Assembly (NCBI GenBank): GCA_021414245.1
Contig: JAIOOU010000004.1
Span: forward strand, 310,001-374,000
Length of the DNA stretch: 64,000 bases
Direction of reading: 5' to 3'
From: Chloroflexota bacterium
GTDB lineage: Bacteria > Chloroflexota > Anaerolineae > Anaerolineales > Villigracilaceae
Positions 17,294 through 30,948 of the stretch are shown one piece after another. The first letter of the stretch is position 1. Each line of letters opens with the position of its first letter. Made by a program: the position numbers and the translations under genes. The notes under the pieces are model-generated. The model did not search any database, was not told where the DNA came from, and saw only the letters and a program-made list of their open reading frames with translations.

Positions 17294-18139
17294 ATGCCTC
17301 TTATCTCAAACCTGTATTATTTTGCCGGCCCGGCAGAGAACCAGGACCTCAATCGCCCGCCCGTGATATTGCTTCATGGGGCGGGCGGTGATCATTTATC
17401 CTGGCCCCCGCAGATCCGCCGGTTGGAAGGTTGGAGTGTTTTTGCCCCCGACCTGCCCGGGCATGGAAAATCGGAAGGCGCAGGCAGGCATTCCGTCGCT
17501 GAATATGCAGTGGATGTGATCGCATTTCTGGATGCATTACAGATCCGTCAGGCGGTCATCGTGGGGATTTCCATGGGCAGCGCGATTGCGCTGCAACTTG
17601 CCTTGAAATATCCCGAACGCGTTGCAGGGCTGGGATTATTCTGTGGCGGCCCCAAAATGCGGGTTGCTCCAGCCGTCCTTGAAACTGCGGGAAATGAAAA
17701 CACCTTTGAATCCGCCGTGGACATGATCAACGAAAATTGTTTCAGCGTTCATGCGCCAAAGAATCTCGTGCAGCTTTCCAAAAAGCGGATGATGAATATG
17801 CGGCCGGCTGTTTTGCTCGGGGATTTTCTGGCGTGCAATGAATTTGATGTGACCGGACACTTGGGGCAGATCGATCATCCTGCGCTGATCATGTGCGGTG
17901 CCGGGGACCGGATGATGCCGGTCAAATTTTCAGAAGCTCTTCGGGACGGAATCGCCAACTCGCAGCTGTGTGTGCTGGAAAATGCGGGACACATGGTCAT
18001 GCTCGAACAGACGGATTCGGTCGTGGAACTGCTTCAGCAATTCCTTGTCTCGCTTGCCCCGCGCTTGAAAAAGACGCGAAAAAAGCGCGTCAAACTTAAT
18101 CCGGATGCCGGTCCTGCGCAACCGGCAGAATCAGCTTGA
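17294..18139 (+). CDS. Alpha/beta hydrolase
   Basis: 281 residues. The oxyanion strand is LLHGAGG (27-32), the nucleophile elbow GISMGS has Ser93, the acid is likely Asp205 (CGAGDRMMP) and the base His233 (NAGHMVM). The C-terminal 25 residues are Lys/Arg-rich (KKTRKKR) and unusual for the fold. The start at 17294 is directly after the kinase stop; an upstream frame from 17255 overlaps the kinase. The fold covers esterases, lactonases and peptidases, and no substrate is indicated. The 3' end overlaps rdgB tail-to-tail by 9 nt. Confidence 0.85.
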   Translation: MPLISNLYYFAGPAENQDLNRPPVILLHGAGGDHLSWPPQIRRLEGWSVFAPDLPGHGKSEGAGRHSVAEYAVDVIAFLDALQIRQAVIVGISMGSAIALQLALKYPERVAGLGLFCGGPKMRVAPAVLETAGNENTFESAVDMINENCFSVHAPKNLVQLSKKRMMNMRPAVLLGDFLACNEFDVTGHLGQIDHPALIMCGAGDRMMPVKFSEALRDGIANSQLCVLENAGHMVMLEQTDSVVELLQQFLVSLAPRLKKTRKKRVKLNPDAGPAQPAESA

Positions 18140-18733
18140 TGGATGGATCCTTCTTAAGATCGGAATTGCATTCATGACCGCCCTGGCCCGATGGCTGAGG
18201 CGGTTTTTTTCATCCATTTCCAATTCCGCCATGGTCCGGCCCAATTCCGGGAACAGAAAGATCGGGTCATAACCAAAGCCGCCGGAACCGCGTTCCTCCG
18301 GGATGATCTCTCCATGGCAATTTCCCTCTGCGATTTCAACCTGCATGCCCGGAACTGCAATGGCGATCGTGGCATGGAAGTGAGCCGTCCATGGCCTGGG
18401 CTTGCCCTGCAGGTTTGCGATCATGTAGGCGCGCCGGTCGGCATCAGTTGCATCCGGTTTAGGGGAATACCGCTTGGAATATAGCCCTGGCGCTCCACCG
18501 AGGGCGTCCACTTCAAGGCCGGAATCATCTGCCAGTGAGATCAGTCCGCTGACCTGCGCGAAGGCGACAGCCTTTTTGACGGCGTTTTCGACATAGGTTA
18601 GACCATCCTCTTCCACGTCGAGATCCATGTCGAGGTCGGCTGGCGTAACGAGTTCAACCCCGGCATCCTTTAGCAGATCCTGCAGTTCCTTCACCTTGCC
18701 ATTGTTATTGGTCGCGATCAGCAGTTTGGTCAT
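18131..18733 (-). CDS. rdgB: XTP/dITP (non-canonical purine NTP) pyrophosphatase
   Basis: 200 residues of the Ham1/RdgB family: an N-terminal LLIATNNNGKVKEL substrate loop and SLADDSGLEVDALGGAPGLYS, the family's most conserved block, followed by GFGYDPIF near the C-terminus. It hydrolyses dITP, XTP and ITP to monophosphates, cleaning the nucleotide pool. The ATG at 18733 is chosen because it lies directly before the first beta strand. Its 5' end overlaps the end of queG by 29 nt, so the two are co-transcribed. Confidence 0.93.
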   Translation of the reverse strand: MTKLLIATNNNGKVKELQDLLKDAGVELVTPADLDMDLDVEEDGLTYVENAVKKAVAFAQVSGLISLADDSGLEVDALGGAPGLYSKRYSPKPDATDADRRAYMIANLQGKPRPWTAHFHATIAIAVPGMQVEIAEGNCHGEIIPEERGSGGFGYDPIFLFPELGRTMAELEMDEKNRLSHRARAVMNAIPILRRIHPSS

Positions 18734-19754
18734 GTTTACCTTTAATATTTTGTATTGCCCATTGCGCATGCTCGCGGATAAGAGGTTCGTCGTCTAGCGC
18801 AGCCTGTTCGAGCCTGGGGAGATCGTTCTGATCGCCGTTATTGCCGGTGGAGACGGCCAGGTTGCGAATATATCCCCTGCGTTTGGTCCGCCTGACCGGA
18901 CTTTTCTTGAAGCGTTGATTGAACTCAACGGATGTCAGGGTCAGGTCCGAGGTCAAAACCGGAAGCGGGATTTTCGGCTCGAAGGCGGGATCGGCCGGGG
19001 CGGAGAAGCGATTCCACGGGCAGACCTGCTGGCAGACATCGCACCCGAAAATCCAATCCTTCATCAAAGGACGCAGATCTTCCGGGATGTTCTCCTTGAG
19101 CTCTATCGTGAGATAGGAAATACAGCGGCGGGCGTCGAGGCTGCGATCCGGCAGAATACATTGGGTGGGACAGGCCGTGAGGCAGCGAGTGCAGGTGCCG
19201 CAATGATCGCTGATGATCGGGTGATCCGGTTCGAGTTCAAGGTCAAGCAGGATCTCGGACAGAAAAAAAGTCGAGCCCGCCTTGGGGTTGATGAGCAGGG
19301 TGTTCTTTCCGATCCAGCCGAGGCCTGCGCGTTGGGCAAGTTCCCGCTCGAGGATGGGACCGGTGTCTGAGTAATAGCGGTTGGTGACCGGATGGCCGAC
19401 CTGTTCTTCGATGAACTCGACCAGGCTTTTCAAGCGCACTGGAAGAACCTCGTGATAATCATCCCCGAGGGCATAGGATGCGATCTTCGGACCGGGGAGT
19501 TCGTTGGAAACCGGCGAATAAGGCGTGGCCAGCACCAGAATGGACTTGCATTCGGGCAGGATCTGTTTCGGGTCGGCCCGGCGGGTGCGGCTGCGGTCTT
19601 CGGCAAGATAAGTCATCATGCCGTGCAGGCCGGCGTTCAGCCATGATTCAAAAGTGGAATAATGCGCGGGGGGCCTGGAAGAAGTAACGCCAGCCAGGGT
19701 AAACCCCAGCTGGCGCGCTTTTTCCTTGATTGCCTGTTTAAGTGCGGCAGTCAC
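18705..19754 (-). CDS. queG: Epoxyqueuosine reductase
   Basis: 349 residues. It reduces epoxyqueuosine to queuosine in tRNA using cobalamin and two [4Fe-4S] clusters. The first ferredoxin-like motif CGTCTRCLTACP has Cys185, 188, 191 and 195, and the second CDVCQQVCP has Cys238, 241 and 245. The probable proton donor is Asp130 in YYSDTGP. A HEAT-like repeat at the C-terminus (DEPLIREHAQWAIQNI) is usual for the family. The start lies 2 nt after the stop of an FW-domain lipoprotein gene, an odd partner for a tRNA-modification enzyme. The end overlaps rdgB. Confidence 0.93.
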   Translation of the reverse strand: MTAALKQAIKEKARQLGFTLAGVTSSRPPAHYSTFESWLNAGLHGMMTYLAEDRSRTRRADPKQILPECKSILVLATPYSPVSNELPGPKIASYALGDDYHEVLPVRLKSLVEFIEEQVGHPVTNRYYSDTGPILERELAQRAGLGWIGKNTLLINPKAGSTFFLSEILLDLELEPDHPIISDHCGTCTRCLTACPTQCILPDRSLDARRCISYLTIELKENIPEDLRPLMKDWIFGCDVCQQVCPWNRFSAPADPAFEPKIPLPVLTSDLTLTSVEFNQRFKKSPVRRTKRRGYIRNLAVSTGNNGDQNDLPRLEQAALDDEPLIREHAQWAIQNIKGKHDQTADRDQ

Positions 19755-19756
19755 TT

Positions 19757-20371
19757 TTACTTGACGATGATCTTCACAAAGATGGCCTTACCAAAAGGTA
19801 TGCCCTTGGGATTTGTCATCTGCCAGGCGCTGGTGTATTCGCCGATCTTGGTCGGCGCTTTGAAGTTCACGGAGATCTCCACTTCCTGGCCGACTTCGAC
19901 CAAGACCCCCAAGGGAACCGGCTGGCCGTCCATTTTTTCGCCATAGGAATAGATCAAGCCGTATCCATCCCCCCAGGCGCAGGCACCTGTATTTTTTATC
20001 TTCCAGGTCTTGATGAATTCCTGACCGGGTGTCATGGCGGTGCCGTCCAGAATGGTCACATCCACTGTGGTGGGATCGAAGGAAAGATCGTCACATAATT
20101 CGCCGGGAGTCCCCAGGGCAATTTGAGTTGGATCGGTTGCGAAGACCGGGGCAGGCGTTTCGGTCGGCGGCTCCTGGGTGGGTGTCTCCGTGGGAGGCAG
20201 GGGGGTGGGCGTAAAGGCCGCGGCCGTGAGTGTGAACTCGGCCACCACCGTGTAGGCAGCGGAAGTCCGTACGGCAAGCACATCAGGGGTCGGTTCGATG
20301 GGGGTGGCGGGAGCACAGGCCGCGAGGATCAGCATGCCTGTCAGTGCAAGGATGGGAAGTTTATATTTCAT
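19757..20371 (-). CDS. Lipoprotein with NBR1-type (FW) Ig-like domain, copy 1
   Basis: 204 residues. The lipobox ILAAC places lipidation at Cys19. A Thr/Pro-rich linker (about 50-85) leads to one Ig-like domain (about 97-204) of the kind found next to BRCA1 in eukaryotic NBR1: a strand-turn motif KTWKIKNTGACAWGDGY, then a WQMTNP strand and the ending FVKIIVK. The FW (four-tryptophan) domain is known as a protein-binding module in NBR1; in bacteria its function is unclear. AGAGG lies seven bases before the ATG. It is the last of five tandem paralogues and is followed 2 nt later by queG. Confidence 0.85.
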   Translation of the reverse strand: MKYKLPILALTGMLILAACAPATPIEPTPDVLAVRTSAAYTVVAEFTLTAAAFTPTPLPPTETPTQEPPTETPAPVFATDPTQIALGTPGELCDDLSFDPTTVDVTILDGTAMTPGQEFIKTWKIKNTGACAWGDGYGLIYSYGEKMDGQPVPLGVLVEVGQEVEISVNFKAPTKIGEYTSAWQMTNPKGIPFGKAIFVKIIVK

Positions 20372-20407
20372 AATAGAACCTCTTTTTTTCCGTATGGATT
20401 CCTGATT

Positions 20408-21121
20408 CTATTTGACGGTGATCTTTACATAAACGAGCGGGCCAAAATAGTTCCCTGAATCATCCCGTAATTTCCAGTACCCGACGTAATCCCCGGGTGT
20501 TTTTGGAGCGGTTAGTTTTAGAACGAAATTTTGGGTGCGGTCGGGTTTTGTGTAATCCTCGGGTTTGTTCTTCGGAAGAACGATGTTATATCCTTCAAAT
20601 CCAGGAGTGGAGAGATCGGCCATAAAGGCAAATGTATAGCCTTCGTCCCAGGTGCAGGTCCCTGTGTTTCGAATGTCCCAGGATTTCTGGAAACTCTTTA
20701 AGGGTGGAAGGACGGTACCGTCTTGCACACCGTCTTCGCTCTCAAACGCGCCGTCGTTACAGCCATTTTTTGTGGCTCCAATGGGGCCGCTCAGTCCGAC
20801 TGTTGGAACCTGTGAAGCAAAGGGGGTCAACCCGGGTTGCTGGGTATTAAATGCGAATGGCGTACCTAAAACCGCAAAGGTGGGAGCTACAAGCAGGGTT
20901 GCTGTCGGTTGGGAAGTGTTGGTTGGCATCGGAGTCGGCGGAATCGCCAGGGCAGTCTGGGTCTGTTGAATGGCGGCCTGGGTTAATACAGCGCCAACAG
21001 ACTGGGTTTGAATGAATGACGGGTCCTGTTCAGGAGCGGGAGTGGCTCCCAAATTGCATGAGCTTAAAATGGCGGCCAGCATTGTTGCCGCTGCCAGCCA
21101 GATTGACTTGCTAGATTTCAT
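20408..21121 (-). CDS. Lipoprotein with NBR1-type (FW) Ig-like domain, copy 2
   Basis: 237 residues from the ATG at 21121, which has an ideal GGAGG eight bases upstream; an in-frame start at 21136 lacks one. Lipidation is predicted at Cys22 (LSSC). A low-complexity Thr/Pro/Gln region is followed by an FW domain containing KSWDIRNTGTCTWDEGY and ending with FGPLVYVKITVK. A Cys-containing loop (KNGCNDGAF) precedes the domain and probably forms a disulfide with the TCTW Cys, as the same spacing occurs in the paralogues. It is anchored outside the cytoplasmic membrane. It lies 36 nt before copy 1 and may share its transcript. Confidence 0.85.
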   Translation of the reverse strand: MKSSKSIWLAAATMLAAILSSCNLGATPAPEQDPSFIQTQSVGAVLTQAAIQQTQTALAIPPTPMPTNTSQPTATLLVAPTFAVLGTPFAFNTQQPGLTPFASQVPTVGLSGPIGATKNGCNDGAFESEDGVQDGTVLPPLKSFQKSWDIRNTGTCTWDEGYTFAFMADLSTPGFEGYNIVLPKNKPEDYTKPDRTQNFVLKLTAPKTPGDYVGYWKLRDDSGNYFGPLVYVKITVK

Positions 21122-21161
21122 ATTAGTGACCTCCAAAAATAGTAACTTTATTATAACGCAC

Positions 21162-22445
21162 CTACGGGGTCGGCGTATTTGTTGGAGTTGACGTGGCGGT
21201 ATTTGTTGGAGTAGGTGTGAGAGTAGGAGTAAAGGTCACGGTCGCGGTTGGCGTGGATGTAAAAGTTGCCGTGGCTGTGGCGGTCGGCGTGATCGAAGCG
21301 GTGGGCGTCGGCGAGGGAACGCCCTGACGGATAATATAAGGGTTAAGCCAGATGGCTTTATCGGCATTGTTGGCGCCATTAGCATCCACAACCAGGATGA
21401 ACTTAACGGTTTCACCCGCCAGACTGCTTAAGTCGAGGTCGACCGGGTAAAACTTGCCTTCATAGATTTCATGCCAGCTCGCCAGTGTTTTGATCTGCCC
21501 GTTGTTCTTGTAATCCAGCCGGAAGATCACGTCACATTTTTGGGAGTTGTGCTGGCAATTTACCAGAGCCCGGAAACGGTCCCCGGTCTGGACGGGGAAT
21601 GAGGGATATTGTCCGTTGATGACGCCATTGTTCTTATCCTGGGGAACGGTCAGCAGGCCGGGCTCATCCTCAGTCGCGCCGTTTTCCATGACGGGTGCAT
21701 TTAATTTAATGACATATCCGCTGGAATCCCCGTTCGTTCCGGGGCAGGGCAGGGATCCATTGCCATTCGACCAGTCGGCGTTGCAGTAATTAACAGCAAA
21801 TTCATAGGCCACAAAGGCAGGGCCGGTCACTTTGATATCCACCCATATTGCCGTATCGGCCAGGGTGCCGATGCCAAATAAGACACCCGAGGCATTTCGT
21901 AATTTCCAATACCCTCGATAATTCCCGTCCTTGTTTGGAGCGGTCAATGTAACGGGAATCTCGATATACTCCCCGGGACTAACGTTCCCGGCAAGTGCAA
22001 CGGCTGACGGTCCGCTCATGGCATCCCCGCCCGTAAATACCAGGGCATAGGAAGGTGTCCAGGAGCAGGTGCCTGTGTTCTTAATGCGCCAGATCTTGAC
22101 GAAGGTATTATTGCGGGATACAAAACTGCCGTCTGGATAGGTCACATCGCTGAGGAATTGAGCCGAGTCACATCTGGACACGGGGGCTGGTACTTGCGGG
22201 ATCGCAGTATTCGTTGCCGCGACAGTTCCATTCGCAATCGTGGCGGAAGGCAGGGGTAAACCCGGGGTAGCCGTGAAACCACTTTGCGTGCCCCCAGCTT
22301 CGAGGGTTTGAGCAGACTGGGTATAAAGGCCGTTTAAAGTCGCGAAGGTATCCGGCGTGGCGGATTTGCTCGGCACATTACAGGCCAGTTGAACGAGAAT
22401 GAGGATTGCAATAAAAAGAATGAAGGGGGATTTTTGTTTAAACAT
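21162..22445 (-). CDS. Lipoprotein with FW domain, extra beta-rich domain and Thr/Pro tail, copy 3
   Basis: 427 residues from the ATG at 22445 (GGAG five bases upstream). Lipidation at Cys22 (VQLAC). An FW domain (about 95-200) carries KIWRIKNTGTCSWTPSY. A second beta-rich domain (about 210-375) contains TGDRFRALVNCQHNSQKCD and resembles carbohydrate-binding-like sandwich modules, though I cannot assign it. The C-terminus is about 50 residues of Thr/Pro repeats (PTPTNTATSTPTNTP) and ends there without another domain, unusual because such linkers normally join two domains. A longer frame upstream to 22661 runs into the next gene and is rejected. Confidence 0.82.
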   Translation of the reverse strand: MFKQKSPFILFIAILILVQLACNVPSKSATPDTFATLNGLYTQSAQTLEAGGTQSGFTATPGLPLPSATIANGTVAATNTAIPQVPAPVSRCDSAQFLSDVTYPDGSFVSRNNTFVKIWRIKNTGTCSWTPSYALVFTGGDAMSGPSAVALAGNVSPGEYIEIPVTLTAPNKDGNYRGYWKLRNASGVLFGIGTLADTAIWVDIKVTGPAFVAYEFAVNYCNADWSNGNGSLPCPGTNGDSSGYVIKLNAPVMENGATEDEPGLLTVPQDKNNGVINGQYPSFPVQTGDRFRALVNCQHNSQKCDVIFRLDYKNNGQIKTLASWHEIYEGKFYPVDLDLSSLAGETVKFILVVDANGANNADKAIWLNPYIIRQGVPSPTPTASITPTATATATFTSTPTATVTFTPTLTPTPTNTATSTPTNTPTP

Positions 22446-22506
22446 GGTTTCTCCGTATAATCGGTTTCCAAGGATTAAAGACGAAGAGAAGGTAGGAATG
22501 GTTCCC

Positions 22507-22541
22507 TTTGAAAAGGCCAGCGGGAAGCTGGCCTTTTCAAA
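22507..22541 (-). terminator. Rho-independent terminator of FW lipoprotein copy 4
   Basis: A 15-bp stem (22507-22521 with 22527-22541) and 5-nt loop directly after the stop codon at 22543. On the minus strand the stem ends in an A/T-rich arm (TTTG...CAAA). Confidence 0.75.
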
Positions 22542-22542
22542 T

Positions 22543-23499
22543 TTACTGGCAGTTGTAACTAAAACCTGCCCTCGGAAATTCCATATAGACCGGGCTCGTG
22601 ACTGTAACGGCCATCCAGCGATTGTCATTCGGTGAGGCTCCCAGATGGAGTTTCCATTCACGGGAAACGGTTTTGGAACCGGCCGCTGTCATTTTTATCG
22701 TACCTTTCCCATCCTGGCTGTTACCGTCGCTCTGGGTCCATAAATACGAGAATTCAAGAGGACCGTTTGTTGTAAAAGTGGCGTATACGGTATATGTGGT
22801 GTTTGTCGGGCAGCCTGTCGCCGGAGTGCGGACAACATCGTATACCACTGAAGTCACTGAATATTCGGGGGCTTCCGCAGTGGAGACAACGATCTTTGCA
22901 TAGAACGGGGCGCTGTAACTGCCGACACCAAATTCAGTGCCATCCGGGGTTTGCAACATCCATTCCGATTTATAGGTGCCTTCTGTAAGAGGCGCAGTAA
23001 GTACGAGGGCGATCGGTATGGTCGCGCCAGGGCCAGTTGCCTGGGGCAGGTCATATACGTAGGCTCCTCCCAGAACATCACCGGACCAGAATACTATTTT
23101 ATAGCCTGTATTCCAGACACAAGTGCTTGTATTTGTAATCTGCCAGGTTTTTGTAAAGACCTGGCCGGGTTTGTAGATCGTCCCATCAGGGACGGTTTCA
23201 CTGGACAGGCTTGCGCTTGCGCACGCCCCACCGGAGTTGGAAATGGGCCGAGTCGGGGAGGCTGGAGGCACAAGCGGGGTCAATGTTGGGATGAATTGTA
23301 CAGGGGTCTGGGTGGCCTGCGTTTGTGTTGGGGCCGGTGTATCAGTGGCCTGTGATGCCGCATTCTGTGCAGCGACAGTTTGTGCAACGGCTGTGGCGAT
23401 AAAGGGATCGTTGGAGGTTCCCGCACCATTGCATGCGGCAACCAGAAAGGTTGTGACCAGGATTGTATTGATCAGGTTGGATTTTATCAGTTTGAACAT
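22543..23499 (-). CDS. Lipoprotein with FW domain plus second Ig-like domain, copy 4
   Basis: 318 residues. Lipidation at Cys23 (LVAAC). A Thr/Gln/Pro linker leads to an FW domain (about 92-205) with KTWQITNTSTCVWNTGY and the ending FYAKIVV. A second Ig-like domain (about 212-318) with CPTNTTYTVYATFTTNGP follows and is related to the C-terminal domain of copy 5. A terminator lies directly after the gene and another lies between it and copy 5, so it is probably transcribed alone. The two-domain layout suggests a surface-exposed binding protein; the ligand is unknown. Confidence 0.83.
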   Translation of the reverse strand: MFKLIKSNLINTILVTTFLVAACNGAGTSNDPFIATAVAQTVAAQNAASQATDTPAPTQTQATQTPVQFIPTLTPLVPPASPTRPISNSGGACASASLSSETVPDGTIYKPGQVFTKTWQITNTSTCVWNTGYKIVFWSGDVLGGAYVYDLPQATGPGATIPIALVLTAPLTEGTYKSEWMLQTPDGTEFGVGSYSAPFYAKIVVSTAEAPEYSVTSVVYDVVRTPATGCPTNTTYTVYATFTTNGPLEFSYLWTQSDGNSQDGKGTIKMTAAGSKTVSREWKLHLGASPNDNRWMAVTVTSPVYMEFPRAGFSYNCQ

Positions 23500-23534
23500 T
23501 TTTTTCCTTTCATATACTGAAATGATTATACTGT

Positions 23535-23566
23535 TAAAAATAAGCGCCCGGAAAACCCGGGCGCTT
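23535..23566 (-). terminator. Rho-independent terminator of FW lipoprotein copy 5
   Basis: A perfect 10-bp GC-rich stem (23542-23551 with 23557-23566), 5-nt loop, followed on the minus strand by TATTTTTAAC. Confidence 0.85.
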
Positions 23567-23592
23567 GGGATATTAATTTTCTTGCAAATGTA

Positions 23593-24504
23593 TTATGGGC
23601 AGGTGAACGTGGCGCGCCCGAATTGTTGATGATTGGGACTGTCTATATATATATCTGTCCAGGAGCTGCTGCCTGCCACGCCAAAATAAACTGGTTCCGT
23701 GAAAGACTGCGTTCCTGCAGAAGCAAAATTCAGGGTCCTGGGAAGCGTATCCGTGCCTCCGTCACTGAATATTCTATGAAGATTTACCGTTCCCGCCCCA
23801 TTTGTGGTGACATTAACCGTGTAGCTGAAATTGGGGCAGGTCCCTGTAACGTTAAAGGTGACGCCGGTCACGGCAAATACAATGGCAGGGGGTAATGTGT
23901 AGGTGGGGGTTACGGAATTCTGGACCTTGATCTGCACATAAAATTGGTTGAATAACACACCTGAACCATCCCGTAATTTCCAGTAGGCGGTGTAATCTCC
24001 AGGGGTTGCAGGAGCGGTTAAATTAACCGAAATATCCACGCTTTGCCCGGGGTTGACATTGCTGGTCAGTGCCTGGGTGGCCGGGCCGTTCATCGAATTG
24101 CCGCTTGAAAATACTATGGCATAGGATGGGGTCCATGTACAGGTGCCCACGTTCTTGATGCGCCAGGTCTTTGTAAAGGCCTGGGAGGGCGACACAATGG
24201 TGCCGTCCGGAATGGTCACATCCGTAATGAATTGCATCAAGTTGCAATTGGATGTGGCGGTGGGAACAGGTGTGTTTGTATTTGCATTTGTCGGTATAGG
24301 TGTAAGGGTGGCCGGTTGGGATAAAGGGGTGAAACTTGGTGTGACTGCGCCGGGCAGAGGTGTGGCGCTTAATACGGCGGCCAGGGTTTGTGCAGCGGCG
24401 GTACCGACCGTATCTTCACCGGTGGTCCCGGAAGGCAGGTTGCAGGCACCAAGGAATAGGGCGGCAATTATCAAAAAGTTGAGCGGGCGTAATTTTTTTT
24501 TCAT
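23593..24504 (-). CDS. Lipoprotein with FW domain plus second Ig-like domain, copy 5
   Basis: 303 residues, with AAGGAG just before the ATG. Lipidation at Cys21 (LGAC). The FW domain (about 85-200) contains KTWRIKNVGTCTWTPSY, very close to copy 3. A second Ig-like domain (about 207-303) ends with FGRATFTCP. Copies 3 and 5 share long blocks in the FW domain (TPSYAIVFSSG against TPSYALVFTGG; SPGEYIEIPV against NPGQSVDISV), so the array grew by local duplication. It is the first gene of the array in the direction of transcription and ends at its own terminator. Confidence 0.85.
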   Translation of the reverse strand: MKKKLRPLNFLIIAALFLGACNLPSGTTGEDTVGTAAAQTLAAVLSATPLPGAVTPSFTPLSQPATLTPIPTNANTNTPVPTATSNCNLMQFITDVTIPDGTIVSPSQAFTKTWRIKNVGTCTWTPSYAIVFSSGNSMNGPATQALTSNVNPGQSVDISVNLTAPATPGDYTAYWKLRDGSGVLFNQFYVQIKVQNSVTPTYTLPPAIVFAVTGVTFNVTGTCPNFSYTVNVTTNGAGTVNLHRIFSDGGTDTLPRTLNFASAGTQSFTEPVYFGVAGSSSWTDIYIDSPNHQQFGRATFTCP

Positions 24505-24575
24505 TTTTTCTCCTTCGTCAAGAAGGTATTTTACCGCAGGTTCACTTTCCTCATATCCCCCGCATTTCTCATCTG

Positions 24576-24607
24576 AATAAAAACAGGAGTTGTGAAAACT
24601 CCTGTTT
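24576..24607 (-). terminator. Rho-independent terminator of the BMP-type ABC operon
   Basis: A 10-bp stem (24581-24590 with 24598-24607) and 7-nt loop, 41 bases after the ATPase stop codon, followed on the minus strand by TTATTC. Confidence 0.7.
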
Positions 24608-24648
24608 GGGTGAAGCGGATAAAGGTCCCGAAGGATGCGCTGAACGGT

Positions 24649-26220
24649 CTAAGCGGTTTCCACGTGGGCGCCGGCCATCCAAAGTCCAAGCTGCTCGCGG
24701 GTGGCCTTCTTGGATTGGACGATCGCAACAATCTGTCCGCGGTACATGACCGCGATGCGGTCGGAGAGCGCCATGATCTCGTCCAATTCCGCCGAGATCA
24801 ATAATACAGCCACACCGCGATCCCGCATTTTGATGATCTCGCTGTGGATGTATTCGATCGAGCCGACGTCAAGCCCGCGGGTGGGCTGGTTTGCAATGAC
24901 AAGCTTCACGCTGCGGCTGAGCTCGCGGGCCACAATCACCTTTTGCTGATTGCCGCCGGAGAGCTTGCCGGCATTGACGAAGGGCGAGGGTGTGCGCACA
25001 TCAAAGGACTTGATCAATTTACGCGCATTTTCATCAAATACTTTGGGCTGCAGGACGGCACGCCGGCTGAAGGGGGAATGATAGTAATCACAAAGCGCCA
25101 TGTTATCGGCCACACTGTAGGAGAGGACCAGACCATGGCGTTGGCGATCCTCCGGGATGTGGGCAAGGCCGGCTTCCGTGATCGTGCGCGGCGGTTTGCC
25201 TGTCAGGTCCTGACCGTCAATGGTGACTTTTCCACCGGCGGGAGAGCGCAGGCCGGTCAATGCCTCCGAAAGTTCAGTTTGACCGTTGCCCTGCACCCCG
25301 GCGATGCCAAGTACCTCCCCCCCAAACACGGAGAAGGAGACATTGTGGACGGTCTCCAGATTGCGTTGGTCACGCACGGAAAGCCCTTCCACCTTAAGGA
25401 CTTCGCCTTCGGCCTTATGATCCTTCTTGTCCACCGTCAGGATCACCTGGCGGCCGACCATCATGTTGGCCAATTGAGCGGAATCCGTTTCGGCGGGTTT
25501 GACGGTATTGATCACGCGCCCGGCGCGCATGACGGTGATGCGGTCCGCCACGGCGAGCACTTCCTTAAGCTTATGGGTGATGAAAATGATCGAGACGCCG
25601 CGCGCGGTCAGGTCACGCATGATGCGGAAGAGGTCTTCCGCTTCCTGGGGAGTGAGTACAGCCGTGGGTTCATCGAGAATTACGATCTCGGCGTTGCGAT
25701 AGAGGGTCTTGACGATCTCGACGCGCTGTTGGATGCCGACGGGCAGGGAACCGACCATCGCATTTGGATCGACGTCCAGGCCGTATTGCTTTGAGATCTC
25801 GGTGATTTTCGCCGAAACAGCAGCCCGGTCAAGAGAGCCGCGTTTGACCGTTTCATCGCCGAGCATGACATTTTCCGCCACGGTAAAGACGGGGATGAGC
25901 ATGAAGTGCTGGTGTACCATGCCGATGCCGAGGGCGATCGAGTCGTTCGGAGATTGGATCACGGCGGTTTTTCCGTTGACGATGACTTCGCCCTTGTCGG
26001 GATGGTGCAGACCATAAATGAGATTCATTAAGGTGCTTTTACCGGCGCCGTTCTCGCCAAGCAGGGCATGGATCTCGCCTTTGCGAAGGTCAAAATTAAC
26101 ACTATCGTTGGCGAGCACCCCCGGAAATTGTTTCGTGATGCCCCTGGCTTCAAGGACAATATTTTCGTTGGCTTTCCTGGTGTCGCCGGTTTTCCTGGTA
26201 TTACTGGTTTTTTTTGTCAT
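24649..26220 (-). CDS. BMP-type ABC transporter ATP-binding protein (two ABC domains)
   Basis: 523 residues with two ABC domains in tandem. The first has a canonical Walker A (GENGAGKST) and signature LPVGIQQRVE; the second has the relaxed loop GVQGNGQTE and signature LSGGNQQKV. This asymmetric pairing is typical of the ATPases of sugar and nucleoside importers of the CUT2/BMP type, such as NupA. An N-terminal Lys/Thr-rich extension of about 20 residues precedes the first strand. The ATG at 26220 is chosen because the longer frame runs into the permease gene. The operon order on the minus strand is substrate-binding protein, permease, permease, ATPase. Confidence 0.9.
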   Translation of the reverse strand: MTKKTSNTRKTGDTRKANENIVLEARGITKQFPGVLANDSVNFDLRKGEIHALLGENGAGKSTLMNLIYGLHHPDKGEVIVNGKTAVIQSPNDSIALGIGMVHQHFMLIPVFTVAENVMLGDETVKRGSLDRAAVSAKITEISKQYGLDVDPNAMVGSLPVGIQQRVEIVKTLYRNAEIVILDEPTAVLTPQEAEDLFRIMRDLTARGVSIIFITHKLKEVLAVADRITVMRAGRVINTVKPAETDSAQLANMMVGRQVILTVDKKDHKAEGEVLKVEGLSVRDQRNLETVHNVSFSVFGGEVLGIAGVQGNGQTELSEALTGLRSPAGGKVTIDGQDLTGKPPRTITEAGLAHIPEDRQRHGLVLSYSVADNMALCDYYHSPFSRRAVLQPKVFDENARKLIKSFDVRTPSPFVNAGKLSGGNQQKVIVARELSRSVKLVIANQPTRGLDVGSIEYIHSEIIKMRDRGVAVLLISAELDEIMALSDRIAVMYRGQIVAIVQSKKATREQLGLWMAGAHVETA

Positions 26221-26228
26221 GGCGGCCT

Positions 26229-27341
26229 CTATTTCTCGTAGGGAACGCCATCTGCAGCAGGGGGCGTGGTCTTGCCGATGATACCTGTCAGAATGATCAT
26301 CGTAAGAATGTAAGGCGTGAGGCCCACGATGTAGGATTGCTGCAAAAAGGCCCATTGGGGAGGGATGACATCCCGGAAGATCTGCATGTTAATTTGCAAG
26401 GCTTGGGATGCGCCAAAAACCAGTGCGGCAGCCCATGCCCCGATCGGAGTCCAGTTGCCAAAGATCATGGCGGCCAAGGAAATAAAACCGCGGCCGTTGG
26501 TGAGCAGGGGCTCGAAGGACGGGACGGATTCGATTGTGAAGTACGCGCCTGCAAGCCCGGCGAACATGCCGCCGATGATGACGTTGGCATAACGCATTTT
26601 GGTGACGTTAATTCCCACCGTGTCCGCGGCCTGGGGGTGTTCGCCCACGGCGCGGGTGCGCAGCCCCCAACGGGTGTTGAACAAAACATAATGGGAAACA
26701 AATACCAACAGGATGGCAGCGATGGCAATTGGTTTTTGATCAAATACGCGGTTGATGGCCTGTACGTTCTGCAGGCAGGTCGTGGCAGCGCCACAGATGG
26801 GCGTGAATAATTCTGTAATTGGAACATGGAGGGTGGGCAAAACGCCGGGGGAGTTTGGCACCGTCCCGCCAAAGACGCTGAGTTTTCCAAAGAACAACTG
26901 GCGGTTTAAAAAGCCGGTCAGGCCAACCGCCAGGATATTGATGACGGTCCCGCCGATGATCTGGTCCACTTTAAAGGTGATGGAAAGTGCTGCGTGCAGC
27001 AAGGACATGATGGCGCCGGTGAGAACCGCAAAAAAAACACCCAGGGCGATGCTGATTCCGATTCCCAGTTCAAAGACGTGGAACATATAGATCGCGCCCA
27101 CCCAGCCGAAGAACGCAGCCATGAGCATCATGCCTTCAATGCCGATGTTGACCACACCGGCGCGCTCACAGAATACACCCGAGAGTGCCCCCAGGGTAAG
27201 GGGTGTTGCAACTGCAATGGTGGTTGCCAACATGCTGGTAATGATCAACAGCGGAGGCTGTTTGGTGTGCCCAACCATGACCACCACACCAAAGAGGACG
27301 ATAATGATCAAAGCAATAAAACTGAACCGTTTCCAATCCAT
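26229..27341 (-). CDS. BMP-type ABC transporter permease (second)
   Basis: 370 residues with eight to ten helices. LGALSGVFCERAGVVNIGIEGMML near the N-terminus is the signature of the BPD_transp_2 permeases that pair with BMP lipoproteins (NupQ/YufQ type). It is longer than usual because of an insert with a CGAATTC-like Cys-containing loop between helices (PICGAATTCLQNV), which could form a disulfide outside the membrane. It lies 8 nt before the ATPase gene and 9 nt after the other permease, so the three are one transcript. Confidence 0.88.
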   Translation of the reverse strand: MDWKRFSFIALIIIVLFGVVVMVGHTKQPPLLIITSMLATTIAVATPLTLGALSGVFCERAGVVNIGIEGMMLMAAFFGWVGAIYMFHVFELGIGISIALGVFFAVLTGAIMSLLHAALSITFKVDQIIGGTVINILAVGLTGFLNRQLFFGKLSVFGGTVPNSPGVLPTLHVPITELFTPICGAATTCLQNVQAINRVFDQKPIAIAAILLVFVSHYVLFNTRWGLRTRAVGEHPQAADTVGINVTKMRYANVIIGGMFAGLAGAYFTIESVPSFEPLLTNGRGFISLAAMIFGNWTPIGAWAAALVFGASQALQINMQIFRDVIPPQWAFLQQSYIVGLTPYILTMIILTGIIGKTTPPAADGVPYEK

Positions 27342-27350
27342 GATTGTCTC

Positions 27351-28478
27351 CTAGCCTCCCCAGCCGCGGGTGAGGACGACACGTTCACCCTTGGATTTAA
27401 TTCGATATATATAGCGGATGATGGCGTCGGCGGCCACAAAGAGCAGGATTAAAGCCTGGATTACGGAGATCAGGTCCACGGGCATTTGAGTCAGGAATTG
27501 CATTCGGCTTGAGCCGTTACGCATGGCCGCAAAAAGCAACGCGGCAAGTACAACTCCCAGCGGGTGGGACCTGCCCAGCAGCGCAATCGCAATGGCGTCG
27601 TATCCGTATCCAATTGAGAATCCAAGCTCGTGACGATAATTCAAGCCGGTGACTTCGATGGACCCGGCCAGGCCGGCCAGCATGCCCGAGAGCATCATGG
27701 TCAGGATGATGGTCCGCTTTACGTTGATGCCCGCATATTGGGCGGCATCCGGGTTTGCTCCCACCGTGCGGATCTCAAAGCCGAGCGTGGTTTTGTTAAG
27801 CAGCCACCAGATAAAGAAGGCGACCAGTAAGGCAAGGACGAATCCCCAGTGCACCCGCAGGCCGTCGAAAATGGCCGGCATGCGCGCGCTTTCGGCAATC
27901 AAAGGGGTGCGCGCAATCACGTTGGTCGGGCTTTTATCCTTCATGACTCCATTCAGGAGAAAGGAGGTTGTGTTCAAGGCGATGTAATTCATCATGATGG
28001 TATTGATGACTTCATGTCCACCCGTATATGCTTTCAAGGCGCCTACAATCCCCGCCCAAATCCCCCCCATGAGCATGCCAATAATAATAGCCAGCGGCAG
28101 GTGGATGTAGATTGGCAGTGAAAAGCCCAGCCATTCAGGGAGGGCGTAGCCAATCAGGGCTGAAAAAACAGCGCCGACGGCCAATTGACCTTCCGCGCCG
28201 ATATTGAATAATCCGCCTTTGAATGCCAGCGCCACCGCGAGGCCTGCAAAAATGTATGGGGTTGCCCAAACAGCAGTTTCACTTAATGCCTTCTTTGAGC
28301 CCAGGGAACCTTCAATGAGACCCTTATATGCAAGAAACGGATCCCCGCCAACCATTTTGATAATGATCCCGCCGAGGATCACGGCAGTCAGGATGGCAAG
28401 AACAGGGATTAAACTGGCGTCTGATATGGATTGTAATATTCGCATGACAGGCGAACTGGATTGCTTATCTGATTGCAT
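27351..28478 (-). CDS. BMP-type ABC transporter permease (first)
   Basis: 375 residues from the ATG at 28478, which has GGAG six bases upstream; an in-frame TTG at 28514 lacks a site. Helical permease of the BPD_transp_2 family (NupP/YufP type), with GLFNIGAEGQLAVGAV, the family's cytoplasmic-loop signature, and AGINVKRTI later on. It forms the heterodimeric channel with the permease encoded 9 nt downstream. A terminator separates it from the substrate-binding gene upstream, so it is transcribed by read-through or from its own promoter. Confidence 0.88.
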   Translation of the reverse strand: MQSDKQSSSPVMRILQSISDASLIPVLAILTAVILGGIIIKMVGGDPFLAYKGLIEGSLGSKKALSETAVWATPYIFAGLAVALAFKGGLFNIGAEGQLAVGAVFSALIGYALPEWLGFSLPIYIHLPLAIIIGMLMGGIWAGIVGALKAYTGGHEVINTIMMNYIALNTTSFLLNGVMKDKSPTNVIARTPLIAESARMPAIFDGLRVHWGFVLALLVAFFIWWLLNKTTLGFEIRTVGANPDAAQYAGINVKRTIILTMMLSGMLAGLAGSIEVTGLNYRHELGFSIGYGYDAIAIALLGRSHPLGVVLAALLFAAMRNGSSRMQFLTQMPVDLISVIQALILLFVAADAIIRYIYRIKSKGERVVLTRGWGG

Positions 28479-28633
28479 CCTTTGCTCCAGTCGAACTTGT
28501 GAATTATTAGTCAATTATATCAAACAAGTGCTGTTCTTCCGTGTAATTTTGGCAACAAATCCCACCCGAAATGTATCCTTGTGGGTCGGCAGGAAATTCG
28601 ATTGCGGGGATGAAGTATTGATGTGATAAATCA

Positions 28634-28667
28634 AAAAGGGAAGGAGGTTTATGCCTCCTTCCCTTTT
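28634..28667 (-). terminator. Terminator/attenuator after the BMP lipoprotein gene
   Basis: A perfect 14-bp stem (28634-28647 with 28654-28667), 6-nt loop, with a T-run on the minus-strand side. It lies between the substrate-binding gene and the permease genes and would make the binding protein more abundant than the membrane components. Confidence 0.85.
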
Positions 28668-28691
28668 ATTACAAACAAAACACTAAATTAC

Positions 28692-29825
28692 TTACGGCTT
28701 GGCGGGGGAAACGTTGGTCTTGATGGAACCATCGAGCAGACCGGCGTTGATCGCTTCCATTGCAGCCTTGACATCGGCGGAAACTTCACCGTCCATATCG
28801 TGGTAAGGTGCATAGCCGGCGGTGCCGGTGAAATTGCCAGCGACAATTGTGCCGTCTTTGGCGGCAGCAATCAACTGGGCAACTCCGGGGGTGATGAGTT
28901 TCATTGCGCTGGAGAGCATGCGGGGGGCAGCTTCGGGCAGGGTCAGGTATTGATCGGCATCCACGCCAATGGCGTACTTGCCAGCCTGGGCGGCGGCTGT
29001 GATGGCGCCGTTACCGGTCACACCACCGCAACCAAAGATCGCATCCGCACCCTGGTCCATCATGGATTTGGCGGTTTGGGCGCCCCATTCAGGATCGGTG
29101 AAGGTCTTATCGAAACCCACATCGCTGTGATAAACAACGAACACTTCGGTGGTGGTGCTATTCATGCCATCGGCATAGGCGGCGCCGGCTTTGTAGCCTT
29201 CACCATAGCGCCAGACGGGAGGAACCACATCGGTACCGCAAACGGCGCCGATCTTGTGGCTCTTGGACTGCATGGCAGCGAGGGCGCCAACCAGGAAGCC
29301 AGCCTGATCTTCGGGGAAGTTCAAACCGGTTACATTCGCGGAGTCATCAGCTTTGTCGTCTGTGTACTGCCAGGCCTGGAACTGATCCACGCCGATGAAC
29401 TTGACATCGGGGTATTGCAGGCCGGCGGCCAGAGTAGCTTCACCGAGACCGAAACCAACGGTCACGATCACATCGAAACCAGAATCAGCGAAGGTGCTGA
29501 TGTTCTTGGCGTAATCCTTGGCATCGGAGGTCTCGATAAATTGGACCAGATCGGCCACGCCATCAGCCTGGGCTTGCTGAACGCCTTCCCAAGCGGATTG
29601 ATTGAAGGACTTGTCATTGACCTTGCCCACATCGGAAACGAGACCGACACAAAAGACTTCGGGCTTGGCGCAATCTTCCTGGGTCACCGCAGCGGCAGGA
29701 GCCTCGGTCGCGGAAGCGGCGGGAGCCTCAGTAGCCGCGGGGGCTTCAGTGGCAGGGGTGCCACAGGCTGCGAGGATCATCGAAGCGACGATCAACATAG
29801 CCATCACATAATATAACTTTTTCAT
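28692..29825 (-). CDS. BMP-family substrate-binding lipoprotein
   Basis: 377 residues. Lipidation at Cys21 (ILAAC) is followed by a linker of TEAPAA repeats to about residue 48. The mature domain starts with VGLVSDVGKVNDKSFNQSAWEG, the fingerprint of the PnrA/BmpA/Med family that binds purine nucleosides. GCGGVTGNGAITAA and IGVDADQYL are further family blocks. It feeds the permease-ATPase genes downstream, so nucleoside uptake is the best guess for the system. GAGGAG precedes the ATG. A consensus-like promoter lies 75-103 bases upstream. Confidence 0.92.
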   Translation of the reverse strand: MKKLYYVMAMLIVASMILAACGTPATEAPAATEAPAASATEAPAAAVTQEDCAKPEVFCVGLVSDVGKVNDKSFNQSAWEGVQQAQADGVADLVQFIETSDAKDYAKNISTFADSGFDVIVTVGFGLGEATLAAGLQYPDVKFIGVDQFQAWQYTDDKADDSANVTGLNFPEDQAGFLVGALAAMQSKSHKIGAVCGTDVVPPVWRYGEGYKAGAAYADGMNSTTTEVFVVYHSDVGFDKTFTDPEWGAQTAKSMMDQGADAIFGCGGVTGNGAITAAAQAGKYAIGVDADQYLTLPEAAPRMLSSAMKLITPGVAQLIAAAKDGTIVAGNFTGTAGYAPYHDMDGEVSADVKAAMEAINAGLLDGSIKTNVSPAKP

Positions 29826-29899
29826 TTTTCTTCTCCTCTAGAAGAGTAAGGGATTTAACGGCCTGCCGGTTCATTTCAGCATAGCCTTACGACTTGGCA

Positions 29900-29928
29900 A
29901 GTATAAATCTATATTTTTTATTGTGCAA
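29900..29928 (-). promoter_or_regulatory. Sigma-70-type promoter of the BMP importer
   Basis: Read on the minus strand: TTGCAC (29928-29923), a 17-nt A/T-rich spacer, TATACT (29905-29900). The start codon is 75 bases downstream of the -10 box. Confidence 0.65.
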
Positions 29929-29940
29929 GTACGAACAATG

Positions 29941-30948
29941 TTAAGGCCTGGAAAAGGTTACATTTGTCTTAATTTGTCCCGTTAACAGCGCAAATATCAG
30001 GGTATCCAACTCCTTTGTGTAATTTTCAGGAAAACTCTGGTCAAGGGGAATATACTGAATCTGACTGAAGAGCGGCTCATCGGCATTTCCATCCTTCAAC
30101 ATACGCATCAAATTCTGGACCTCCAGGCTGGCGTTGCCATAAATGGAGGTCAACACACTCGAGCCGGATTCTCCCAAAGCTGCCCGTTGATCCCTTTCCG
30201 CGCCGATCACATCGACCCCGGCTTCCGAAGCCGCCCGCAAGGCACCCTGCCCTGTGACTCCGCCGGCGGCGAAAATCACATCCGCTCCGCGTTCGATCAA
30301 TTGGCGGGCTGTCTCGTATCCCCAAGCCTCATCTAAAAATAATTTATCCCGGTCCCCATTTTCACGGTAGATCACCTGGGCGATGATGTTTTCATCCACG
30401 AATTTTGCCCCCGCCCGGAATCCTTCGCAATACCTCCACATCGAATCAATGCCCGAAGTCTCACAGACCGCGCCTACGATCCGTGTTTGTGAGATGCGCG
30501 CGGCGGAAGCTCCTGCCACGAAACCGATCTGATCCTCAGCGAAAGTGACCGGGATGAGATTGGGACGCGATTCCTCCCGGGCTTGATTCATGCCGATAAA
30601 AACAGTATCAGGATACAGCTCCGCGGCTTGAAGCGTTTCGTCCTGCAATCCGGCCCCTGTGGTGAGGATCGCATCGTATCCCTTTTCGGCGAAGTAGGCG
30701 ATGTTTTTTTCGTAATCGCGGGTATCGATCGATTCAATGAAATCAGCGCGGTCGATGGCTCCCTTGTCCTTGGCCGCCTCCAATCCAGCCCAGCTGTCTC
30801 GGTTGATCCCATGATCGTCCAGCCCTTGTGTGTCGGTCACGAGGGCGGCGCAAAAGACCTTTTGATTAAAACAATCTGACGATTGCAGGCAGCCCGGAAG
30901 ACTGAGCCATACAACCGTCAGAAGGATCAGGTTTGCAGCAGAACGCAA
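29941..30948 (-). CDS. Second BMP-family lipoprotein, without its own permease
   Basis: 335 residues. Lipidation at Cys20 (LPGC). It aligns along its length with the BMP protein at 28692 (VFCAALVTDTQGLDDHGINRDSWAGLE; VTFAEDQIGFVAGA; GGVTGQGALRAA; WRYCEGFRAGAKF) but lacks the long repeat linker and has diverged in the ligand pocket: the usual NDKSFNQ is DDHGINR. It begins 4 nt after an MFS transporter gene and not with the ABC genes. It may bind a different ligand for the same permease, or act as a receptor, as Med and BmpA-type proteins do in other bacteria. Confidence 0.85.
   Translation of the reverse strand: MRSAANLILLTVVWLSLPGCLQSSDCFNQKVFCAALVTDTQGLDDHGINRDSWAGLEAAKDKGAIDRADFIESIDTRDYEKNIAYFAEKGYDAILTTGAGLQDETLQAAELYPDTVFIGMNQAREESRPNLIPVTFAEDQIGFVAGASAARISQTRIVGAVCETSGIDSMWRYCEGFRAGAKFVDENIIAQVIYRENGDRDKLFLDEAWGYETARQLIERGADVIFAAGGVTGQGALRAASEAGVDVIGAERDQRAALGESGSSVLTSIYGNASLEVQNLMRMLKDGNADEPLFSQIQYIPLDQSFPENYTKELDTLIFALLTGQIKTNVTFSRP

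Follow-up and report, generated by a model that had tools for sequence, protein, structure and literature searches.

We analysed a stretch of 64,000 nucleotides from a Chloroflexota genome (contig JAIOOU010000004.1 of assembly GCA_021414245.1, positions 310,001 to 374,000; the window hereafter), in which a first-pass annotation had pointed to a tandem array of putative lipoprotein genes with FW domains of the NBR1 type. Open reading frames (ORFs), the lipobox pattern and the Pfam profile PF16158 (N_BRCA1_IG) all bear the observation out: five neighbouring genes occupy the minus strand from 24504 to 19757, and are named here p5 to p1 in transcription order (Table 1). In all five proteins a hydrophobic N-terminus ends in a lipobox-like Cys (LAAC, LSSC, QLAC, VAAC and LGAC), called by pattern rather than by a trained signal-peptide predictor. 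Each continues with a linker of 65-98 residues, rich in Thr, Pro, Ala and Ser (29-42% Thr plus Pro), and with an FW domain. The p3 ORF as listed encodes 499 residues and starts too far upstream; an ATG preceding the lipobox lies at 22445. The motif KTWxIxNTGTCxW, proposed earlier for the FW domain, is a fair summary of the copies and is not exact in all five.

Table 1. The five array genes, with the hairpins and the ORFs associated with them (aa, amino acids; coordinates are those of the window).
Feature	Position	Strand	Length (aa)	Description	PF16158 E-value	Motif stretch
p5	23593-24504	minus	303	putative lipoprotein; FW ~23923-24246; second beta domain ~23602-23871	1.1e-26	KTWRIKNVGTCTW
p4	22543-23499	minus	318	putative lipoprotein; FW ~22885-23223; second domain ~22546-22866	1e-20	KTWQITNTSTCVW
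p3	21162-22445	minus	427	putative lipoprotein; FW ~21822-22172; CBM51-like jelly roll ~21330-21821; bare Thr/Pro tail 21165-21320	1.5e-24	KIWRIKNTGTCSW
p2	20408-21121	minus	237	putative lipoprotein; one C-terminal FW ~20411-20761	3.2e-21	KSWDIRNTGTCTW
p1	19757-20371	minus	204	putative lipoprotein; one C-terminal FW ~19760-20095	1e-25	KTWKIKNTGACAW
Hairpin after p5	23566-23542	minus		terminator-like; 11-pair stem, T tail; window scan
Hairpin after p4	22511-22537	minus		terminator-like, with T run; read by eye, missed by the script rule
queG and rdgB homologues	18131-19754	minus		ORFs downstream of p1

The NBR1-type identity of the domains is upheld by profile, by sequence search and by predicted fold. 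PF16158 scored 90.8, 76.3, 87.0, 74.7 and 94.0 bits in p1 to p5 (Pfam cut-off, 28), and it was the only Pfam family over the cut-off in the five proteins, with no match to PB1, ZZ, UBA or helix-turn-helix (HTH) domains; NCBIfam gave no match above its own cut-off for any of them. As a control, the profile matched in none of 14 well-known genomes, and 18 times in this genome. A PDB sequence search with p5 found ILRUN (E 1.7e-14) and NBR1 (E 8.5e-11), and a search with a p3 profile returned three FW proteins and nothing else below E 0.1. AlphaFold2 (AF2) models were built for p3, from an alignment of 29 sequences that excluded the truncated rows L070, L085 and L091 (predicted local distance difference test, pLDDT, 89.8), and for residues 84-303 of p5, from 44 of the 67 p5 and p4 rows (pLDDT 92.3); p1, p2 and p4 were assigned by sequence. 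Both predicted FW domains match the Ig-like beta-sandwich seen in 4ole, 6vhi and 7vqo. Against ILRUN (6vhi) p3 gave Z 17.0, with a root-mean-square deviation (rmsd) of 1.4 over 108 residues, and p5 gave Z 16.8 (1.4 over 107). The corresponding values were Z 15.1 and 15.4 against NBR1, and Z 14.8 (1.5 over 102) and 14.5 (1.6 over 101) against CtNbr1 bound to Ams1 (7vqo). Of the four conserved Trp residues, p3 of the window has all, p5, p4 and p2 have three plus a Tyr, and p1 has three plus a Phe, the fourth position being Trp in p3 only. By profile the domains are thus FW rather than members of another Ig family, and the pocket residues are largely present.

The pocket itself can be compared with that of the fungal protein CtNbr1, where F651, D654, D658, W672, L762 and W763 hold the N-terminal Gly-Gly of Ams1, and where Ala at F651, D654, D658 or W763, each alone, abolishes binding (PMC9233695). 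We counted the equivalent positions by slot on the aligned CtNbr1 stretch, which lacks the last strand (we placed the equivalents of W763 and L762 by the FG anchor and by p3), and scored one frameshifted p3 row as a miss. The D658 equivalent is Asp in 29/29 p1, 30/30 p2, 31/32 p3, 31/31 p4 and 36/36 p5 rows, and the equivalent of W672, the pocket floor, is Trp in 29/29, 21/30, 32/32, 31/31 and 36/36, respectively. At the F651 position Phe is found in 31/32 p3 and 36/36 p5 rows, and the D654 equivalent is acidic in all p1 (29), p2 (30) and p5 (36) rows and in 31/32 p3. The W763 equivalent is Trp in 27/32 p3, and Tyr in 25/31 p4 and 32/36 p5. The pocket loop of p1 carries a 3-residue insertion. 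As judged from these alignments, the pocket appears complete in p3 apart from R743, nearly so in p5, and altered to varying degrees in p1, p2 and p4.

A pair of Cys residues is the second conserved feature, one lying five residues upstream of the F651 position, the other in GTCxW. They take the first two ranks by relative entropy, a measure that favours rare residues; by plain frequency both stand at 0.91 (weighted), behind one Trp and one Asn at 1.0. We counted the pair in 478 distinct FW domains across all loci (rows shorter than 80 residues were excluded from the FW sets). Two of these were cut and three anchorless, leaving 473 scored, from which we dropped one frameshifted row (L091), one with masked letters (L225) and one that was mis-anchored and has both Cys (L211). 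Among the remaining 470 domains, 453 have both Cys, 13 neither, 4 the first only and 0 the second only. A hydrophobic segment lies upstream in 441 of the 453 domains with the pair, and 12 have none. The GTCxW Cys corresponds to Val in human NBR1 and in CtNbr1, and to Glu in ILRUN; at the upstream position ILRUN has Val, and the aligned stretches of NBR1 and CtNbr1 do not reach it. From this pattern we infer that the two conserved Cys would form a disulfide.

The domains departing from the pattern are of several kinds. In three of the four with the first Cys only, the last strand supplies another Cys (two in L100, one in L101), and in the fourth (L109) it does not; the divergent FW proteins concerned, L100:5863-7311 and L101:4697-5521, are encoded in the same genome as the array, and their last-strand Cys looks like an alternative staple. 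The 13 domains with neither Cys comprise eight from Chloroflexota and five comparators from plasmid records: two HTH-bearing proteins, presumably cytosolic, one Mycobacterium protein with no upstream hydrophobic segment, and two Nonomuraea proteins. The latter (L249:1829-2833 and L251) have an upstream hydrophobic segment and other Cys within the FW domain, perhaps a convergent staple.

We then looked at the array across related genomes. The order p5-p4-p3-p2-p1 on one strand is kept in 34/34 loci with at least three array members, from four genera. All five members are present in 20 loci: the window itself, 11 further loci of its genus, and 8 from three more genera in the family. A tree was built from 190 FW domains over 124 columns, with support by the Shimodaira-Hasegawa-like approximate likelihood ratio test only and with 90 of its 187 inner branches open. 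In it the slots group across genera: p1 (29 rows; 99, starred), p5 (36 rows; 97, starred), p3 (32 rows; 87) and p4 (31 rows; 88). The p2 rows split into two neighbouring groups of 24 (90) and 6 (93). Local duplication, as suggested in the first-pass annotation, does not account for the five genes as a recent event: the array is common to four genera, and the grouping of p1, p3, p4 and p5 by slot opposes recent tandem duplication as their source; for p2 the tree leaves the question open. Single members have been doubled recently at other loci, p5 in L075 and L162, and p2 in one five-member locus outside the genus of the window (L156). Two genomes have the set in two separate parts, L158 and L159 in one, L160 and L161 in the other. 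No close p4 match was obtained in three genomes from two additional genera (g20, g21; best identity 35-41%), and the array was not found in them.

The p5 slot (L068-L092, L150-L162) holds one of two FW subtypes, of WTPSYAIVF or WSGYSLVFDSG type; both are present in the genus of the window and beyond it in the family, which would look like the sorting or exchange of an ancient pair. Upstream of the array, different species have one of two ATP-binding cassette (ABC) transporter operons (24649-28514 in the window), with an ATPase 72-91% or 61-64% identical to that of the window. A by-eye comparison showed no link between p5 subtype and transporter type. Among 38 array loci, a match to the ABC ATPase of the window lies upstream in 25 and QueG downstream in 25. 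Several loci with no flanking match end at contig edges; L076, L082, L084 and L087 lack the ATPase despite at least 5 kb of upstream sequence. We take these flanking genes to be queG, rdgB and an ABC ATPase gene.

The array is probably not a series of separately terminated genes. The p1 stop codon lies 2 bp before the queG ORF, and in 24/25 loci the distance from the p1 stop to the aligned start of QueG is at most 16 nt. Across loci, a script applied with no shuffle control found terminator-like hairpins after p5 in 18/28 and after p4 in 14/27, and none after p3 (0/28) or p2 (0/29); none was seen after p3 or p2 in the window either. The earlier proposal of separate terminators thus keeps candidate sites after p5 and p4, where hairpins were found by the scan and by eye, respectively, and is not supported for p3, p2 and p1, which run into queG; one terminator per gene is rejected. 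Probably, p3-p2-p1 are co-transcribed with the queG and rdgB homologues as one operon. In the window, a scan gave 13 terminator-like sites (shuffle mean 9.5, standard deviation 3.5) and 7 promoter-like sites (mean 5.2, standard deviation 2.3), counts near the shuffle means, so that single sites of either kind are weak evidence. A hairpin with a T run, read by eye at 24581-24607, follows the ABC ATPase gene, and p5 is thus probably not read from the transporter operon.

PF16158 matches extend to relatives of this organism. The genome itself and 40 sampled relatives each had at least one, and in a sample of 400 Chloroflexota genomes, its own included, 116 had a match, 93 of them above the cut-off. 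A scan of named genomes with the p3 alignment found 311 relatives; the best 80 of them all bear genus names that we take to be of Chloroflexota, and one of these 80, under the name Candidatus Villigracilaceae, has 71% identity, a value that falls inside the range for the genus of the window. Searches gave no support to a phage or plasmid origin: there was no match in 50,697 phage records, one scan of viral contigs gave 12 pattern matches, none of them a relative by tblastn, and 5 of 72,556 plasmid records matched. PHROG had no match for the p3 domains, and Rfam none in 18000-30000. Elsewhere in the same genome, an 856-aa frame joins two FW domains to an agarase-type galactose-binding-like domain, and L096:4691-5770 has a lipobox-like start, an FW domain and a CAP domain (PF00188, E 4.1e-14).

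From what was computed (the domains, the lipobox patterns, the fixed order, the co-occurrence of the Cys and the pocket residues) we infer a disulfide, surface display, peptide binding and distinct partners. We propose, with a probability of about 0.45, that the five proteins are lipid-anchored, stalked FW docking heads, rigidified by a disulfide, which bind the N-termini of partner proteins, with different partners for different slots. The lipid anchor and a flexible Thr/Pro stalk would present the FW head at the cell surface. The head, by analogy with Nbr1, would hold a peptide exposed by its partner, most likely that protein's free N-terminus, in an aromatic and acidic pocket, and a disulfide from the Cys before strand 1 to the GTCxW Cys would stiffen it for life outside the cell. 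Partners could be the cell's own secreted proteins or surface components of neighbours. Since the heads differ in pocket and in added domains, and are kept as five slots in four genera, they would most likely dock different partners. A broader idea, which we consider rather unlikely, is that in bacteria extracellular disulfide-locked FW domains would read free protein N-termini, as a lipid-anchored docking set that captures specific secreted proteins by their first residues. This would be a counterpart of the selection of hydrolase cargo by Nbr1, and perhaps the more ancient of the domain's uses.

Several observations weigh against the docking-head proposal. Pocket residues are replaced in some slots: the W672 equivalent is Phe in 9/30 p2 rows, and the F651 equivalent is Phe in just 21/29 p1, 14/30 p2 and, as aligned, 1/31 p4. 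The D654 equivalent is acidic in 8/31 p4 as aligned; here the aligner had shifted the loop, and a hand reading of p4 in the window gives Leu for F651 and Glu for D654, with the loop length of human NBR1. At the W763 position residues are mixed in p1 (11 Phe, 9 Tyr and 7 Ile of 29) and p2 (11 Trp, 9 Ser and 7 Tyr of 30). R743, required in CtNbr1, is not conserved in p3 (Asn by hand count), and the pocket Asp and Trp could be kept for folding. Regarding the Cys pair, a hydrophobic segment precedes eight of the 13 domains with neither Cys, so that FW domains outside the cell can do without it. Most of the 453 domains with the pair are close relatives; the tree shows 7 changes of the first Cys and 9 of the second, and a branch-independent test of the pair had too little power (median p 0.5, from 2-3 pairs on well-supported branches). 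Concerning the slots, the division of p2 between two tree groups means that its orthology rests on position, and since the flanking genes are also conserved, slow rearrangement alone could have kept the array together.

The added domains bring in another possibility. The second domains of p5 and p4, reported earlier as Ig-like, are indeed present: both are C-terminal, of about 100 aa, and align with each other. That of p5 is all beta in the AF2 model, and the whole two-domain model matches tandem sandwiches (transglutaminase, RbmA) with high rmsd; given such matches, an Ig-like or fibronectin-like character is only suggested by the model. The single gene noted for a beta-rich domain and a bare Thr/Pro tail is p3, and its description can be refined. 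The tail is 52 aa long, with 65% Thr plus Pro. The second domain, of about 164 aa, is beta in the AF2 model, which resembles CBM51 (2vmh: Z 14.3, rmsd 2.9 over 134 residues, 12% identity); the single-domain CBM51 entries from 2vmh to 2vnr gave Z 14.3-13.4, followed by meprin alpha (12.1) and the MAM domain of neuropilin (12.0). According to the model p3 would thus share the CBM51 fold, and a shared fold shows no function. Pfam had no match for the second domain of p5, p4 or p3. The proteins might then be glycan-binding adhesins, whose heads, led by the CBM51-like domain, bind surrounding polysaccharides with FW as a companion domain. That CBM51 is the closest fold to the predicted p3 domain agrees with this, as do the p3-like unit of FW and second domain, which also matches within larger reading frames of related genomes, the agarase-type domain of the 856-aa frame, and the adhesion of wastewater Chloroflexota, termed unclear in PMC10746286. 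However, only p3 among the five has such a domain, its identity to CBM51 is low and unaccompanied by a Pfam match, and the wastewater observation need not apply to this organism. We consider this explanation doubtful.

Somewhat less probable still is that the FW and other beta domains are structural spacers, which merely extend or pack in the envelope with the pocket unused. The replacement of the fourth Trp in 4/5 window copies and the variation of pocket residues in p1, p2 and p4 would fit such a role, but FW forms the C-terminal tip of p1 and p2, an odd spot for a spacer, and the D658 position hardly varies and the D654 position is acidic in most rows. A pocket that grips the free amine of a peptidoglycan peptide or cross-bridge, tying the membrane anchor to the wall, would rely on the chemistry of the known ligand, in which a small residue offers its free amine (PMC9233695); beyond this the idea is conjecture, Pfam shows no domain besides FW in the five proteins, and we consider it improbable.

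The array offers compact domains for peptide-library and structural work: a conserved five-member set with clear orthologues, a near-intact pocket in p3 and p5, and a testable disulfide. It is relevant to where the NBR1 cargo-binding module came from, and makes the bacterial use of FW testable. For Anaerolineales it also yields candidate surface proteins; wastewater members of the phylum adhere by a mechanism called unclear (PMC10746286). A 2012 paper described FW domains in bacteria (PMC3357945), PMC9233695 mentions them again, and the parts of these papers available to us give no function; public annotation labels some bacterial proteins NBR1-Ig-like. Among the literature matches listed (titles and abstract starts, with subscription papers sparsely covered) there was no FW lipoprotein array and no Cys pair in bacterial FW domains, which is no proof of absence. 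The literature found describes neither a conserved array of five slots, nor the Cys pair, nor such a pocket in putatively exported proteins.

Comparison with known systems places the array proteins as follows. The second domain of p3 has a predicted jelly-roll fold like CBM51 (2vmh and others), and differs from it by the identity of 12% and the missing Pfam match. FW proteins are known in Chloroflexi (PMC3357945), and these share phylum and domain with the array; the accessible text gives only their presence, and not an array, orthology or a Cys pair. The bacterial XRE-FW proteins (PMC3357945), for which examples from Gordonia and Rhodococcus were compared, are alike in having FW in the C-terminal half, with a pocket loop DVTVPDGT or DITIPDGT. 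They carry an HTH and no Cys pair, whereas the array proteins have a lipobox-like start and no HTH match. The NBR1 autophagy receptors have PB1 or ZZ beside FW; Pfam finds neither in the array proteins, so none of these is an NBR1. With the FW domains of NBR1 and ILRUN themselves, the array proteins share the PF16158 profile, the predicted fold (p3 and p5) and the order of the Trp and Asp pocket residues, and they differ in their predicted lipid-anchored export and in their Cys pair.

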